A stretch of 64,000 bases of DNA. Origin: Actinomycetospora endophytica. GTDB lineage: Bacteria; Actinomycetota; Actinomycetes; Mycobacteriales; Pseudonocardiaceae. Both the position numbers and the translations under genes were made by a program. Positions within the stretch are counted from its first letter, which is position 1. Every line of letters begins with the position of its first letter. The stretch spans positions 310,001-374,000 of the forward strand of contig NZ_JAJNDB010000002.1 of assembly GCF_021026375.1 (NCBI RefSeq). The letters run 5' to 3'. Below are positions 9,725 through 59,155 of this stretch, in pieces. The notes below the pieces were generated by a model. That model searched no databases, was not told the DNA's origin, and saw nothing but the letters and a program-made list of their open reading frames with translations.

Positions 9725-9787
9725 TGATCACCGGGCACCTGGCGGGGCGGAGCGAGATCCACGAGCCCGCTATGTGCCCGGTGATCA
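9725..9787. repeat. Palindromic repeat, copy 1 (GGGCACCTGGCGGGG element)
   Basis: A 63-nt element with perfect 14-nt outer arms, 9725-9738 and 9774-9787 (TGATCACCGGGCAC and its complement), and inner GGCGGG/CCCGCT pairing. Part of it (GGGCACCTGGCGGGG then CGAGATCC, and GTGCCCGGTGATCA at the end) recurs about 200 nt further on, in the same orientation. It lies just upstream of the DUF559 gene start. Confidence 0.7.
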
Positions 9788-9806
9788 AGGGCCGGTCGAG
9801 CCCGAT

Positions 9807-9829
9807 GTCAGCGATGCCGCATCGCTGAC
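9807..9829. repeat. GTCAGCG-family palindrome, short copy
   Basis: Perfect inverted repeat GTCAGCGATG, 3-nt loop, CATCGCTGAC. It belongs to the dispersed family also seen at 10001, 28175, 53412, 53441 and 58908. Confidence 0.7.
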
Positions 9830-9928
9830 GCGGGGCGAGGCGGGGCGTCCGTAGAGGGGTGCCGAGGGTGGCCGGCGAGTGGTGCTCGGTCCCTGCGCGC
9901 CCGGCCCAGCCATTGGCGCGCGTTCAAC

Positions 9929-9982
9929 GGGCACCTGGCGGGGTCGAACGAGATCCGCCAGCCCACCAGGTGCCCGGTGATC
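9929..9982. repeat. Palindromic repeat, copy 2 (GGGCACCTGGCGGGG element)
   Basis: Second copy of the element at 9725, same orientation. Outer arms GGGCACCTGG (9929-9938) and CCAGGTGCCC (9966-9975), followed by the same GGTGATCA tail. The loop has diverged from copy 1, but base pairing of the stem is kept, which suggests selection for structure. The gap 9830-9928 between the elements has no gene that I can support. Confidence 0.7.
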
Positions 9983-10000
9983 ATGGTGCGGCCGCCCAGA

Positions 10001-10045
10001 TGTCAGCGTCCTACTGAGCACACCGATAGGGGACCATCGCTGACA
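10001..10045. repeat. GTCAGCG-family palindrome, long-loop copy
   Basis: Arms TGTCAGCG (10001-10008) and CGCTGACA (10038-10045), with additional inner pairing of TCC with GGA. It ends just before the stop of the GntR gene on the minus strand and could end its transcript. Confidence 0.6.
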
Positions 10046-26358: not shown

Positions 26359-27036
26359 GTGGAGGTCTCCCGCGCCCGTGCCGCCGACTGCGCCGACACC
26401 CCGTTGCTGCTGGTGCCCGTCGGCGCGCTCGAACAGCACGGCCCGCACCTGCCGCTCGGGACCGACAGCGCGGTGGCGACGACGGTGGCCGGGCGGACCG
26501 GGCTGCCGGTCACCCCGCCGATCGCGTTCGGTGCCTCGGGCGAGCACGAGGGCTTCCCCGGCACGGTGTCGATCGGCACCGAGGCGCTGGCCGCGGTGCT
26601 GGTGGAGACCGGCCGGTCGGCGTGCCGGTGGGCGCCGCGGCTGCTCTTCGTCAACGGGCACGGCGGGAACCTCCCGGCCCTGGTGGCGGCGACGACGTTG
26701 CTGCGCGCGGAGTCCCGCGACGTGGCCTGGCACTCCTGCGGGGTGCCGGGCGCCGACGCGCACGCGGGGCGGCACGAGACGTCGCTGATGCTCGCGCTGG
26801 CTCCCGATGACGTCCGGCCGGAGCTGGCGGAGGCCGGCAACACCGCGCCGCTGGCCGAGCTGATGCCGGCGATCCGGTCGGGTTCGGTGGCCGACGTGAG
26901 CCCGAACGGGGTGCTCGGTGACCCCGCGGGGGCGGGCGCGGCGGAGGGCGCGGAGACGACGTCGGTGATGGTCGCGGCGCTGCTCGACGCGATCGCCGAC
27001 TGGCGCGTCGACGAGCAGGGCCGGCTGGGTGTCTGA
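26359..27036 (+). CDS. mftE: Mycofactocin peptidase MftE (creatininase family)
   Basis: 225-aa metal-dependent creatininase-family peptidase that releases the Val-Tyr-derived dipeptide (AHDP) from modified MftA. The metal-site motifs VGALEQHGPHLPLGTDS and FVNGHGGNLPAL are present. The start is uncertain: GTG 26359 is the best in-frame choice, but the conserved fold seems to begin slightly upstream at GW, where only CTG 26341 is available. The next gene, mftF, overlaps by 8 nt. Separated from mftC by about 13.5 kb, which is unusual. Confidence 0.9.
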   Translation: MEVSRARAADCADTPLLLVPVGALEQHGPHLPLGTDSAVATTVAGRTGLPVTPPIAFGASGEHEGFPGTVSIGTEALAAVLVETGRSACRWAPRLLFVNGHGGNLPALVAATTLLRAESRDVAWHSCGVPGADAHAGRHETSLMLALAPDDVRPELAEAGNTAPLAELMPAIRSGSVADVSPNGVLGDPAGAGAAEGAETTSVMVAALLDAIADWRVDEQGRLGV

Positions 27037-28564
27037 GCCGCGTCCGCCCCGACTCCCCGACGGCTGGACCGTCCGGTCCGACCCCCGCACCTGGCGGGTC
27101 GACGGCGGCGCGACGTGGATCGGCGGCTCGCCACCGCGCGTGCTGCGGCTGTCGGCGGCCGCGCGGTCACGGCTCGCCGGTCCCGAGCTCGTCGTCGCCG
27201 ACGCCACCACCGCCGCGCTGGCGCGCCTGCTCTCCGATGCGGGCGTCGCCCATCCCGACCCGGCCCGCGCGCCGTCGGTCCCCGGGCCGGACGAGGTCAC
27301 CGTCGTCGTGCCGGTGCGCGACCGGACCGTCGAGCTCGAGCGCCTCCTCGCCGCCGTGCGGGCCACCGCTCCGGGGCTGGGCGGGATCGTCGTCGTCGAC
27401 GACGGGTCGGCAGACCCCGATGCGACCGAGCGGGTCGTCGCGGCGCACGGCGGGCGGGTCGTGCGGCACCCGTCGTCGCGGGGTCCGTCGGCGGCGCGCA
27501 ACACCGGGGCGCGGGCCTCGACGACGGGCATCGTGGCGTTCCTGGACTCGGACGTCGTCCCCGAGCCGGGCTGGTTGACGACGCTGCTCGGGCACCTGGG
27601 CGACGCGGCGGTGGGCGCGGTGGCGCCGCGGATCGTGGCCTGGGCTTCCCCGGGCGATCAGGAGAATCCGGTGACCCGCTACGAGCGCCGCCGTTCCTCG
27701 CTGGACCTGGGGGAGCGGCCGGCCCCGGTGACGGCGCGGTCGCGGGTGGCGTACGTGCCGAGCGCGGCGCTGCTGGTGCGGCGCTCCGCGTTCGGCGAGG
27801 GCTTCCGCGAGGACATGCCGGTGGCCGAGGACGTCGACCTGGTGTGGCGGATCGCCGCGTCGGGCTGGCGGCTGCGCTACGAGCCGGCCGCGCGGGTGGC
27901 GCACGAGCATCGCGCGAGCGTGCGGGCGTGGCTGGGGCGCAAGGCGTTCTACGGGACCGGGGCGGCGCCGTTGGCCCGGCACCATCCCCGGCGGGTGCCG
28001 CCGGTGGCGCTGGCGCCGTGGACGGCGGCGGCGATGACGCTGCTCGGGGTGCAACGGCGCTGGTCGGTGGCGGCCGCGGGCGCGGTGACGGTGGTGGCGA
28101 CGGCGAGGCTGGCGCGGGGGCTGCGCAAGCCGGGCGAGCCGTGGATCGGTCGGGCGGATCGAGGATGTGGAGCTGCTGACGTCCAGCGTCAGCGGTGCCG
28201 CATCGCTGACGTCACGACCGGCCCGATCCCCCTCGCCCTCGTGCTCGCCCCGTGGGGACTCGGCGGCGCGGCGTGGCAGGCGGCGGGCGCGCTGACCCGG
28301 CACTGGTGGCCCGCGGCCGTGCTCGGTGCGGTGGTGAGCAGGCGGGTGCGGCGCGCGCTGCTGGCCGCCGCCGTCGTCGAGGGTCTGGCCGACTGGCTGC
28401 GGTTCCGGGACCGTGGCGCCGGCCCGGTCGACGCCGTCCTGCACGTGGCGGCCCACCGCGCGGACGACCTCGCCTACGGCGCCGGGCTGTGGTGGGGAGC
28501 CTGGCGCCACCGCACCGTCGAGCCGCTGCGGCCGGACCTGTCCGGGAAAGGACCCGACGGCTGA
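27029..28564 (+). CDS. mftF: Mycofactocin glycosyltransferase MftF
   Basis: 511-aa membrane-associated GT2 glycosyltransferase that adds glucose units to the mycofactocin core. The catalytic domain (about 90-300) shows VTVVVPVRDR, IVVVDDGSADP, the DxD motif FLDSDVVP and the late EDVDLVWRI; C-terminal hydrophobic helices (MTLLGVQRRWSVAAAGAVTVVA, LVLAPWGLGG) are membrane segments. Around residues 381-396, between two such segments, the gene contains a palindromic repeat of the GTCAGCG family that adds a Cys/Arg/Gln-rich peptide in frame (QRQRCRIAD). GTG start inside mftE. Confidence 0.92.
   Translation: MSEPRPPRLPDGWTVRSDPRTWRVDGGATWIGGSPPRVLRLSAAARSRLAGPELVVADATTAALARLLSDAGVAHPDPARAPSVPGPDEVTVVVPVRDRTVELERLLAAVRATAPGLGGIVVVDDGSADPDATERVVAAHGGRVVRHPSSRGPSAARNTGARASTTGIVAFLDSDVVPEPGWLTTLLGHLGDAAVGAVAPRIVAWASPGDQENPVTRYERRRSSLDLGERPAPVTARSRVAYVPSAALLVRRSAFGEGFREDMPVAEDVDLVWRIAASGWRLRYEPAARVAHEHRASVRAWLGRKAFYGTGAAPLARHHPRRVPPVALAPWTAAAMTLLGVQRRWSVAAAGAVTVVATARLARGLRKPGEPWIGRADRGCGAADVQRQRCRIADVTTGPIPLALVLAPWGLGGAAWQAAGALTRHWWPAAVLGAVVSRRVRRALLAAAVVEGLADWLRFRDRGAGPVDAVLHVAAHRADDLAYGAGLWWGAWRHRTVEPLRPDLSGKGPDG
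28175..28211. repeat. GTCAGCG-family palindrome inside mftF
   Basis: Half-sites GCTGACG (28175), CGTCAGC (28187) and CGCTGACG (28204) form overlapping inverted repeats within the mftF coding frame. It is read without stops as QRQR..IAD, the same frame and nearly the same peptide as the copy inside the MFS gene at 58908. Confidence 0.75.
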
Positions 28565-53411: not shown

Positions 53412-53434
53412 TGTCAGGAAGGGTTCATCCTGAC
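53412..53434. repeat. GTCAGCG-family palindrome variant
   Basis: TGTCAGGA (53412) and TCCTGAC (53428-53434) around an 8-nt loop; a variant of the family core with GGA in place of GCG. Tandem with the next copy, between the membrane-protein and AMP nucleosidase genes. Confidence 0.55.
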
Positions 53435-53440
53435 GTCAGG

Positions 53441-53465
53441 TGTCAGCGGTGGTTCATCGCTGACA
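53441..53465. repeat. GTCAGCG-family palindrome
   Basis: Perfect arms TGTCAGCG (53441-53448) and CGCTGACA (53458-53465) with a 9-nt loop. It ends 8 nt before the AMP nucleosidase stop and may terminate that gene. Confidence 0.7.
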
Positions 53466-57521: not shown

Positions 57522-59054
57522 TCACGTCGTCCCCCGACGGCGGGGGAGCAGCGAATGGCCGCGGGTGGTGAGCACGGTCTGCACCGTACCGACCGCCAGC
57601 ACGGCGCTGATCACGGTGAACCCGATCCACCACTCCGGGGGCAGCAGCACCCCGAGCGCCCCGCCGAACACCCAGGACAGCTGCAGGATCGTCTCGGAGC
57701 GCCCGAACGCCGAGGCGCGCGCCGCCTCCGGCATGTCGCGCTGCATGACGGCGTCGAGACACACCTTGAGCAGCGCGGACGCCGTCGCGCCGACCAGGCC
57801 GACCACGGCCGCCGTCGTCAGCCCGACGAGGATCGCAGCCACCACGGTCGCCGCGAGGGTCGCGCCCAGACCGGCGACGACGACGGTGTCGGGCCGGTCG
57901 AAGCGTCGTCGGGCGCCGAGCGCGTTGCCCAGGAACCCGCCGGCACCCGCGGCCGCCCCGACGATCCCGAGCAGGACCAGCTGGCGGCCCGGCGTGCCCT
58001 CGGTCTGGTGCTTGACCACGAACGCCGAGAAGAGCGTCAGGAAGCCGGTGAGGGCGCGGATCGAGCCGTTGGCCCACAGCGCGGTGACGACGTGGCTGCT
58101 CATCGGCACCCGCCGCGCCTTCGTGCCCGGTCGGGGGATGAGGACCGTCTCCTCCTCGCCCTCGGTGACCTCGACCCACGACGGGATCCGCAGGCACAGC
58201 CACACCCCGACCCCGCAGATCACGGCGGTCGCCCAGGCCGCGCCGGGCGAGCCGAAGAGGAAGGCGATCCCGGCGCCGATCCCGCCGAACACCCCCGAGG
58301 CGATCATGCCGAAGACCGTGAGGCGCGAGTTCGTCGTCACCAGCGTGATGCCCGGCGGCAGCACCCGGGGCGTGACCGCCGCCTTGAGGACGCCGAACGA
58401 CTTCGACAGCACCATGATCCCGAGCGCCGCCGGGTAGAGCGCCCAGGTGTCCATGAACAGGGCGAGCACGACGGCGAGCACGCCCTGGCCCGCCGTCGAG
58501 AGCGCCAGGGCGAGCCGGCGGCCGCGCTGGATGCGGTCGAGCAGCGGGCCGATCACCGGCGCGATGACCGCGAACGGCGCGACGGTGATGAGCAGGTAGA
58601 GCGCGACCTTGTCCTTGGACTCGGCGCTCGCGGCCGAGAAGAACAGGGTGTTGGCGAGGGCGACGGCGAGGGTCGCGTCGGAGGCGTAGTTCGCCATCCA
58701 CGCGTAGGTCAGCGCGGTCAGCCCGGAGCGGTCGGCGCCGTCGGCCGAGGCCGCGCGGTGGAAGGCGCGCACGCCCGCCCGGGTGAGGTTCCGCGTCCGC
58801 GAGGCCGCGACGCGGGTGACGGTGATCTTCTTCGGGCCGGCGTCGTCGGCGTCCTGGCCGGTGAGACGGCGGGTCGGTGGGGGCTCGCGCCGGGTGTCGG
58901 CCTCGTCGTCAGCGATGGTCCGTTGCTGACGTCTGGTGTCAGCAACGGACCTTCGCTGACGCTCGGGGGTGGGCTCCGCTGCGCTGCGCCGTCGCGGCCG
59001 CCCCGCCGACCACCCCGGTCGCCCGGGGTCGGAGGAATGGTCGCTGCGCGTCAC
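57522..59054 (-). CDS. MFS transporter with palindromic element in its 5' coding part
   Basis: 510-aa major-facilitator protein with about 12 membrane helices after a 100-residue hydrophilic N-terminus. I see ITVTRVAA and SGLTALTYAWMANYASDATLAVALANTLFF, and the linker RIQRGRRLALALST. Substrate unknown. Residues 32-49 come from a palindromic repeat and read RQRRSVAD and RQQRTIAD. No in-frame start exists between that repeat and the ITVTRVAA stretch, so the repeat is translated if the gene starts at or near GTG 59054. Confidence 0.85.
   Translation of the reverse strand: MTRSDHSSDPGRPGWSAGRPRRRSAAEPTPERQRRSVADTRRQQRTIADDEADTRREPPPTRRLTGQDADDAGPKKITVTRVAASRTRNLTRAGVRAFHRAASADGADRSGLTALTYAWMANYASDATLAVALANTLFFSAASAESKDKVALYLLITVAPFAVIAPVIGPLLDRIQRGRRLALALSTAGQGVLAVVLALFMDTWALYPAALGIMVLSKSFGVLKAAVTPRVLPPGITLVTTNSRLTVFGMIASGVFGGIGAGIAFLFGSPGAAWATAVICGVGVWLCLRIPSWVEVTEGEEETVLIPRPGTKARRVPMSSHVVTALWANGSIRALTGFLTLFSAFVVKHQTEGTPGRQLVLLGIVGAAAGAGGFLGNALGARRRFDRPDTVVVAGLGATLAATVVAAILVGLTTAAVVGLVGATASALLKVCLDAVMQRDMPEAARASAFGRSETILQLSWVFGGALGVLLPPEWWIGFTVISAVLAVGTVQTVLTTRGHSLLPRRRGTT
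58908..58960. repeat. GTCAGCG-family palindrome inside the MFS gene
   Basis: Longest copy of the family: 23-nt arms, 58908-58930 and 58938-58960, with one mismatch and a 7-nt loop. The arms contain GTCAGCG and an inner GGTCCGTTGCTGAC. It is in frame with the MFS gene on the minus strand and gives a peptide in the same frame as the mftF copy. Confidence 0.8.
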
Positions 59055-59113
59055 CGCTCCATGGTCGCCTACGTCCGCGCCGGGGAAGGGCCGAGGCTGT
59101 CGGGGCGTTCTCC

Positions 59114-59119
59114 TAGACT
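59114..59119 (+). promoter_or_regulatory. Putative mfd promoter -10
   Basis: TAGACT fits TANNNT and lies 37 nt before the mfd GTG, which has GAAGGG 5 nt upstream. No clear -35 is seen. Confidence 0.4.
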
Positions 59120-59155
59120 GGAATCGATCGCCTCAGGTTTCTGCGAAGGGCTCTG

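Follow-up and report, generated by a model that had tools for sequence, protein, structure and literature searches.

An in-frame palindromic insert in mftF of Actinomycetospora endophytica is probably a copy of a repeat family of this genus

Introduction

Actinomycetospora is a genus of soil bacteria. The mftF gene of Actinomycetospora endophytica, which encodes the mycofactocin glycosyltransferase, contains a palindromic DNA sequence that lies in frame with the protein and seems to be translated with it. Where does this sequence come from, and how is it accommodated within a protein gene? An earlier note on this DNA compared it to the Rickettsia palindromic elements (RPEs), which were described there as spreading into protein genes in one tolerated frame. 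Here, we analyzed the mftF palindrome together with its copies in the same genome and their counterparts in other Actinomycetospora species. The relatives are designated by genome labels (e.g., G004), and "the window" denotes the whole 64,000-nt stretch that was analyzed (G000:C10:310001-374000), which belongs to a genome of 6.98 Mb in 17 contigs (G000).

A palindromic element within mftF

The mftF gene corresponds to the open reading frame at 27029-28564 of the window (forward strand), whose product matches the MftF profile TIGR03965 with 464.2 bits relative to a cut-off of 280. The best 14 MftF matches were all from Actinomycetospora (80-86% for the first five). The palindromic element spans positions 28161-28210 on the forward strand and is composed of a left arm (28161-28180; GAGGATGTGGAGCTGCTGAC), a 7-nt spacer (28181-28187; GTCCAGC) and a 23-nt palindrome (28188-28210; GTCAGCGGTGCCGCATCGCTGAC). 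A copy with all 50 nt identical is present at another locus of the same genome (L099). The earlier note had located the palindrome at 28169-28214, in the mftF frame and encoding the peptide VQRQRCRIADV; its position, frame and peptide were correct, but its limits were not, as this interval starts within the left arm and ends four bases beyond the element. The insert covers approximately residues 378-394 of the protein and is flanked by hydropathy peaks at residues 347-365 and 395-418, in agreement, as judged by hydropathy, with its proposed location between two membrane segments. We infer that the element likely lengthens a loop between two hydrophobic segments of MftF. When folded as RNA, this copy reached -31.3 kcal/mol (z = -4.7).

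Three other copies were found in the window. The first is a full-palindrome element composed of two 23-nt units separated by a 7-nt spacer (58908-58960, minus strand), which lies in the N-terminal tail of an MFS transporter (open frame 57525-59132, minus strand, 536 codons from stop to stop) and reads RQRRSVADTRRQQRTIAD on the minus strand, as the earlier note had reported. This copy was not called coding by codon score; it was taken as coding because relatives share the N-terminal tail around it. Its RNA folding was the stronger one (-43 kcal/mol; z = -9.0), and its region yielded no match in a plasmid collection. The second copy is a two-hairpin element (53413-53464, forward strand) formed by a 22-nt unit, 7 nt and a 23-nt unit, and a coding frame on the minus strand ends 9 nt short of the latter. 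The third is a single 23-nt palindrome unit (9807-9829, forward strand) with flanks that are non-coding by codon score. We also observed two 71-nt direct repeats at 9728-9994, which are 82% alike and 196 nt apart; after these repeats come the GTCAGC palindrome (9807) and then a disrupted palindrome (10002-10044). Scanning the window against Rfam returned no match.

A palindromic repeat family in Actinomycetospora

We searched the entire genome for the pattern GTCAGC-N11-GCTGAC and identified 87 exact 23-mers in 6.98 Mb, relative to a single occurrence of the reversed-pattern control, which indicates that the palindromes form a family and are not the product of chance. These 87 units were grouped into 77 sites. 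Two of the sites (L083 and L095) fit the 23-mer pattern but their interior is unlike the family, and they were rejected as chance matches, leaving 75 probable elements. The unit is a 23-nt palindrome with the ends GTCAGC...GCTGAC, and the copy of it that was folded forms a 10-bp stem and a 3-nt loop. The full element is composed of two units, or of a variant arm and a unit, usually 7 nt apart (i.e., with a period of 30 nt), for an overall length of 50-53 nt. Several forms were distinguished among the 87 units: family A, to which the mftF element belongs (50 nt, with the left end GAGGATG; 25 units), a 52-nt form whose second unit is 22 nt long (15 units), 53-nt full palindromes (29 units), single units (12) and others (6).

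The exact pattern was found 6 to 87 times per genome across the 18 genomes of the genus, with species-specific interiors (for instance, GTCAGCGGTGGCACACGGCTGAC in G002 and G005 and GTCAGCGATGGCCCACCGCTGAC in G004). Outside the genus, the counts tabulated for 395 genomes of the same order range from 0 to 12 per genome. The counts of G007 (6), G009 (10) and G010 (12) fall within this outsider range and, therefore, the number of exact matches by itself is no proof that the family is present in these three species. In addition, a second palindromic family with the core GGAAAGCGTCGTTGC was identified in 5 of the 18 genomes (197 matches in G013, 108 in G008, 89 in G005, 22 in G002 and 2 in G017), and many of its matches form pairs 30 nt apart.

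Genomic location of the copies

The genomic context of the 77 sites was inferred with a codon-score model, which was trained on 24 long frames of the window and is known to miss genes. Most copies in this genome were not scored as in-gene: 14 sites were assigned to genes, 22 to intergenic regions between same-strand genes, 11 to convergent and 2 to divergent intergenic regions, and 28 presented a flank scoring as non-coding. Among the 22 copies located between same-strand genes, 20 have an upstream frame that ends ahead of the unit, and the stop of the other 2 falls within it. The earlier note had considered that a majority of disruptive copies would contradict its interpretation, and no clear example was seen among these 22.

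The looser codon screen assigned 14 of the 77 sites to genes and a stricter one assigned 11, both including the rejected L083; the stricter screen missed mftF itself. After removing L083 from the looser set and adding the MFS copy on the basis of the comparison with relatives, we accepted 14 in-gene copies among the 75 probable elements. Thus, the palindrome is dispersed, in frame, within many unrelated genes. In-gene copies were also found in relatives, with 2 of 21 sites in G004 and 5 of 40 sites in G005 (where a single gene accounts for two); these figures are part samples, for which regions were picked from the listed matches and some chance-looking ones were omitted.

Two reading phases of the in-gene elements

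Two phases of the unit are open, encoding either VSDxxSLTxxV or RQRxxxAD, and the third phase carries a TGA. The third phase is absent from our set by construction, since the unit holds this stop codon and our screen required an open frame. Nine in-gene elements are read in the VSD phase: in CobIJ between two tetrapyrrole-methylase stretches (L091), in an MFS protein (L080), in the cytochrome bd subunit I (L100), in the Dak1-Dak2 linker of DhaKL (L011), before the LytB/IspH domain (L079), in the P450-flavodoxin linker of CYP102 (L019), at a CN_hydrolase-tRNA_edit junction (L064), in a NuoN-like protein before its Proton_antipo_M domain (L089) and in a glycosyltransferase-acyltransferase linker (L081). 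Five are read in the RQR phase: those of MftF (28161-28210) and of the MFS N-terminal tail (window position 58908), as well as those of a CtaG-like (L086), a Thump-like (L101) and an MGDG-synthase-like protein (L078). The idea of one tolerated frame is therefore contradicted genome-wide by these 14 elements, as both stop-free phases are used. The 9:5 ratio is not significant (P = 0.13, one-sided, computed for 4 of 13 before L078 was accepted as the fifth RQR element).

All but one of the 14 elements lie outside the listed Pfam matches, the element of cytochrome bd being located inside its match. Judging from the sequences, in-gene elements appear to be located mostly at linkers or loops. Three of the four encoded peptides that were scored are polar (GRAVY of -0.7 to -1.9), and the cytochrome bd peptide scored +0.66. 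We also observed that the second unit of the 52-nt elements ends in CTGAC, which places a TGA in frame when the VSD phase is read; the forward-read in-gene copies of this form (L091, L019 and L089) end in CTCAC, as do L013, L014 and L020, although these three were not counted as in-gene.

One of the VSD-phase copies lies at the junction of nitrilase-like and YbaK-like sequences (L064, on G000:C9; element at 1501-1523 of the locus, gene on the minus strand), and a single open frame of 670 codons runs through CN_hydrolase, the element and tRNA_edit. Five relatives, including G004, gave a match, and the junction was read in the other four (G009, G017, G013 and G005). In each of these four, the end of the nitrilase-like gene lies no more than two residues from LPVLANRR, and YbaK-like sequence follows directly after its stop. 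A single stop-free frame of 623 codons was considered for G009 and ruled out, the region consisting of 461 codons, a stop and 161 codons. At the level of reading frames, L064 thus represents a possible gene fusion.

Comparison of the sites across species

We compared 11 of the 14 in-gene sites with those of relatives (L078, L080 and L081 were left out). At most of these sites, some relatives presented no insert or a different one, although some cases are weaker than others. The MftF loop is long (30-53 residues) in 13 of the 16 complete copies of the genus and short in G001, G003 and G010; the gene of G008 is interrupted at the ends of contigs, and no match was obtained for G014. In other actinobacteria, the loop is 8-10 residues long in all 66 MftF proteins, as measured from anchors that differ from those of the 30-53 figure. 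The earlier note had proposed that finding the same peptide conserved in genera lacking the repeat would speak against an insertion; no such peptide was present in these 66 proteins. Homologues without the insert were likewise found for the cytochrome bd subunit I, where the element is present in this genome and absent in all four relatives, with a 54-nt difference to G009.

The mftF element was found to resemble the other copies of its own genome. Indeed, for the mftF copy of this genome, the score is 51 with other copies from this genome and 32 with the copies of G004, and the same two values were obtained in reverse for the mftF copy of G004 (51 with the copies of G004 and 32 with those of this genome); these are the two species in which this match was testable. 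The mftF loop of G013 and G005 carries the second family. In the loop of G002 (L028), a third kind of palindrome is observed (CCGGTGCACGCAGCGACGCATTGCGTGCACCGG), and the mftF gene of G008 is split across two contigs (L034 and L047) at the loop that bears the repeat in relatives, which perhaps reflects an assembly break at the palindrome.

As for the other sites, in CobIJ and in the NuoN-like protein, relatives present element-like sequence in the same linker, in the same phase where the palindrome is recognizable. In the MFS N-terminal tail, G009 and G010 carry an element that belongs to a different subfamily and is read in the same phase, and G017, G013 and G005 carry none. For the Thump-like protein, the corresponding position of G004 is occupied, in the same phase, by an element of the type found in that species. 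The CtaG-like protein lacks an insert in G013, G005 and G017, and the insert of G009 was not assignable to a family. Inserts were observed for IspH in G013 and G009 and none in G004. Finally, in CYP102 and DhaKL, relatives present no recognizable palindrome; these two represent the weakest cases of insertion because the linker length varies among relatives.

Within each site compared, the phase is constant between species wherever the palindrome is recognizable: the same phase is shared by 11 species for mftF, four for the NuoN-like protein, three for MFS and two each for CobIJ and the Thump-like protein. These 11 species are found among the 13 with a long MftF loop, the other two (G009 and G006) presenting no detected palindrome. 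The counts exclude the palindromes detected in other phases at mftF of G002, G007, G012 and G016, which were taken as chance, and a palindrome detected in NuoN of G017; at mftF of G007 and G012, the palindrome detected in phase 1 is the inner one, which encloses the spacer. Our detector found no palindrome in mftF of G009 and G006 nor in CobIJ of G009, G005 and G013, where decayed element-like sequence is visible by eye, and its pattern for IspH yielded zero matches.

Origin and evolution of the in-gene elements

Taken together, these results indicate that the mftF feature is very probably one member of a family of non-autonomous, REP/RPE-like palindromic repeats that belongs to the genus Actinomycetospora. 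Insertions would have survived where the frame was kept and a spare loop or linker was met, and the short and mostly polar peptide that they encode may be neutral or nearly so. We could not associate this family with a mobilizing enzyme or a target duplication: the search for Y1/RAYT proteins (PF01797) was negative in all 18 genomes of the genus and positive in 5 of 14 control genomes, and target duplications of 1 to 12 nt were not significantly enriched across 69 rows representing 59 distinct elements (the best summed z among the 12 lengths were 1.95 for length 6 and 1.74 for length 4), although old duplications could have decayed. Mobility is therefore deduced from copy number and from the presence and absence of the elements across species.

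How can the phase remain fixed at each site while the sequence of the element changes? This pattern leads us to propose, tentatively, that the in-gene elements are old insertions whose sequence was repeatedly overwritten by the current family of the host genome, with the site and the phase remaining fixed. Overwriting might proceed by gene conversion or by a new element displacing the old hairpin. If this is true, a selfish repeat keeps rewriting the linker peptides of housekeeping proteins (MftF, NuoN-like and CobIJ) across the genus. Alternatively, the elements might have been inserted independently in each species at tolerant sites, with older copies never being replaced. This is the main rival to overwriting, and we consider it unlikely. 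In its favor, each mftF element of the tested pair of species is closer to the repeats of its own genome than to those of the other species, and another family is present in mftF of G013 and G005. However, where a palindrome is recognizable, the phase is constant within each site even though both phases are open and used elsewhere; this constancy could also be explained if the protein itself restricts the phase.

Two further explanations concern the role of the insert. It could represent a functional peptide under selection, the DNA palindrome being incidental, and the same phase and similar peptides are indeed found in many members of the genus. This seems very improbable, as a copy located elsewhere in the genome matches the mftF element at all 50 nt, the insert is lacking from 3 of the 16 complete copies of the genus and from all outsiders, and the MftF loop of G013, G005 and G002 contains other palindromes. 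Finally, it is scarcely credible that the palindromes are bound by a transcription factor or nucleoid protein and have a regulatory role in mftF: they do possess strict dyad symmetry, their ends are fixed and their units follow each other at a constant distance of 30 nt, but the units are mostly found in 50-53-nt modules with variable, species-specific interiors, only 2 of the 77 sites were scored as divergent and 14 of the 22 copies between same-strand genes are located no more than 20 nt after the upstream stop.

Overall, retaining the interpretation of a REP/RPE-like repeat family, these results add a GC-rich genus of actinobacteria to the organisms with protein-coding palindromic repeats. 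Its 18 genomes make it possible to trace insertion, the choice of phase, the turnover of sequence and a possible gene fusion across species. They also raise the question of what mobilizes a repeat family without a recognizable Y1 enzyme.

Comparison with known repeats

REPINs are composed of two palindromes in inverted arrangement that form one unit, and are associated with a RAYT transposase. The Actinomycetospora element presents the same inverted two-palindrome unit, but no PF01797 protein was found in any of the 18 genomes. MITEs are small elements with inverted ends and no gene of their own. These properties are shared by the Actinomycetospora elements, for which no significant target duplication was detected.

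The kind of sequence described here is known from RPEs and intragenic REPs, and the family itself appears to be new within the open-licence literature searched; the fixed phase at each site combined with sequence turnover is the newer part. The earlier note knew of no such element in this group, which agrees with our finding none for Actinomycetospora in this literature, but REP counts are tabulated for three species of other Actinomycetota, such as Arthrobacter (PMC12306157). Intragenic REPs of the GTAG and CGTC super-families were described in 2013 in several species beyond Rickettsia (PMC3733652), and the term "Actinobacteria" is absent from the main text of that article. Like the Actinomycetospora elements, these are short palindromes that often form dimers, with many located near gene ends and some inside ORFs, where flexible linkers or loops were argued to accommodate them (PMC3733652). 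The same study reported that, in recB, two Xanthomonas species carry REPs that differ from one another at nearly the same position. CGTC REPs are described there with stems of 8-9 bp and loops of 4-5 nt, in contrast to the 10-bp stem and the 3-nt loop of the Actinomycetospora unit. This stem and loop are at odds with a CGTC-tagged REP as described there, and no unpaired GTAG or CGTC tag was recognized by eye in the listed elements.

RPEs are described as dispersed palindromes found in frame in many unrelated genes and forming several families (PMC10969869; PMC3733652), and RPE-4 and RPE-6 of R. conorii were identified as CGTC repeats (PMC3733652). The Actinomycetospora elements are likewise dispersed, in frame in many unrelated genes and divided into several families. 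The analogy drawn by the earlier note is therefore supported for a dispersed palindrome inserted in frame in several protein genes, but not for a single frame. The two systems, compared here by description, belong to different phyla and differ in size, with 50-53 nt for the Actinomycetospora element relative to about 150 bp for RPEs (PMC10969869). Finally, each RPE is stated to encode a conserved peptide (PMC10969869), whereas the Actinomycetospora element is read in two phases and hence encodes two peptides.
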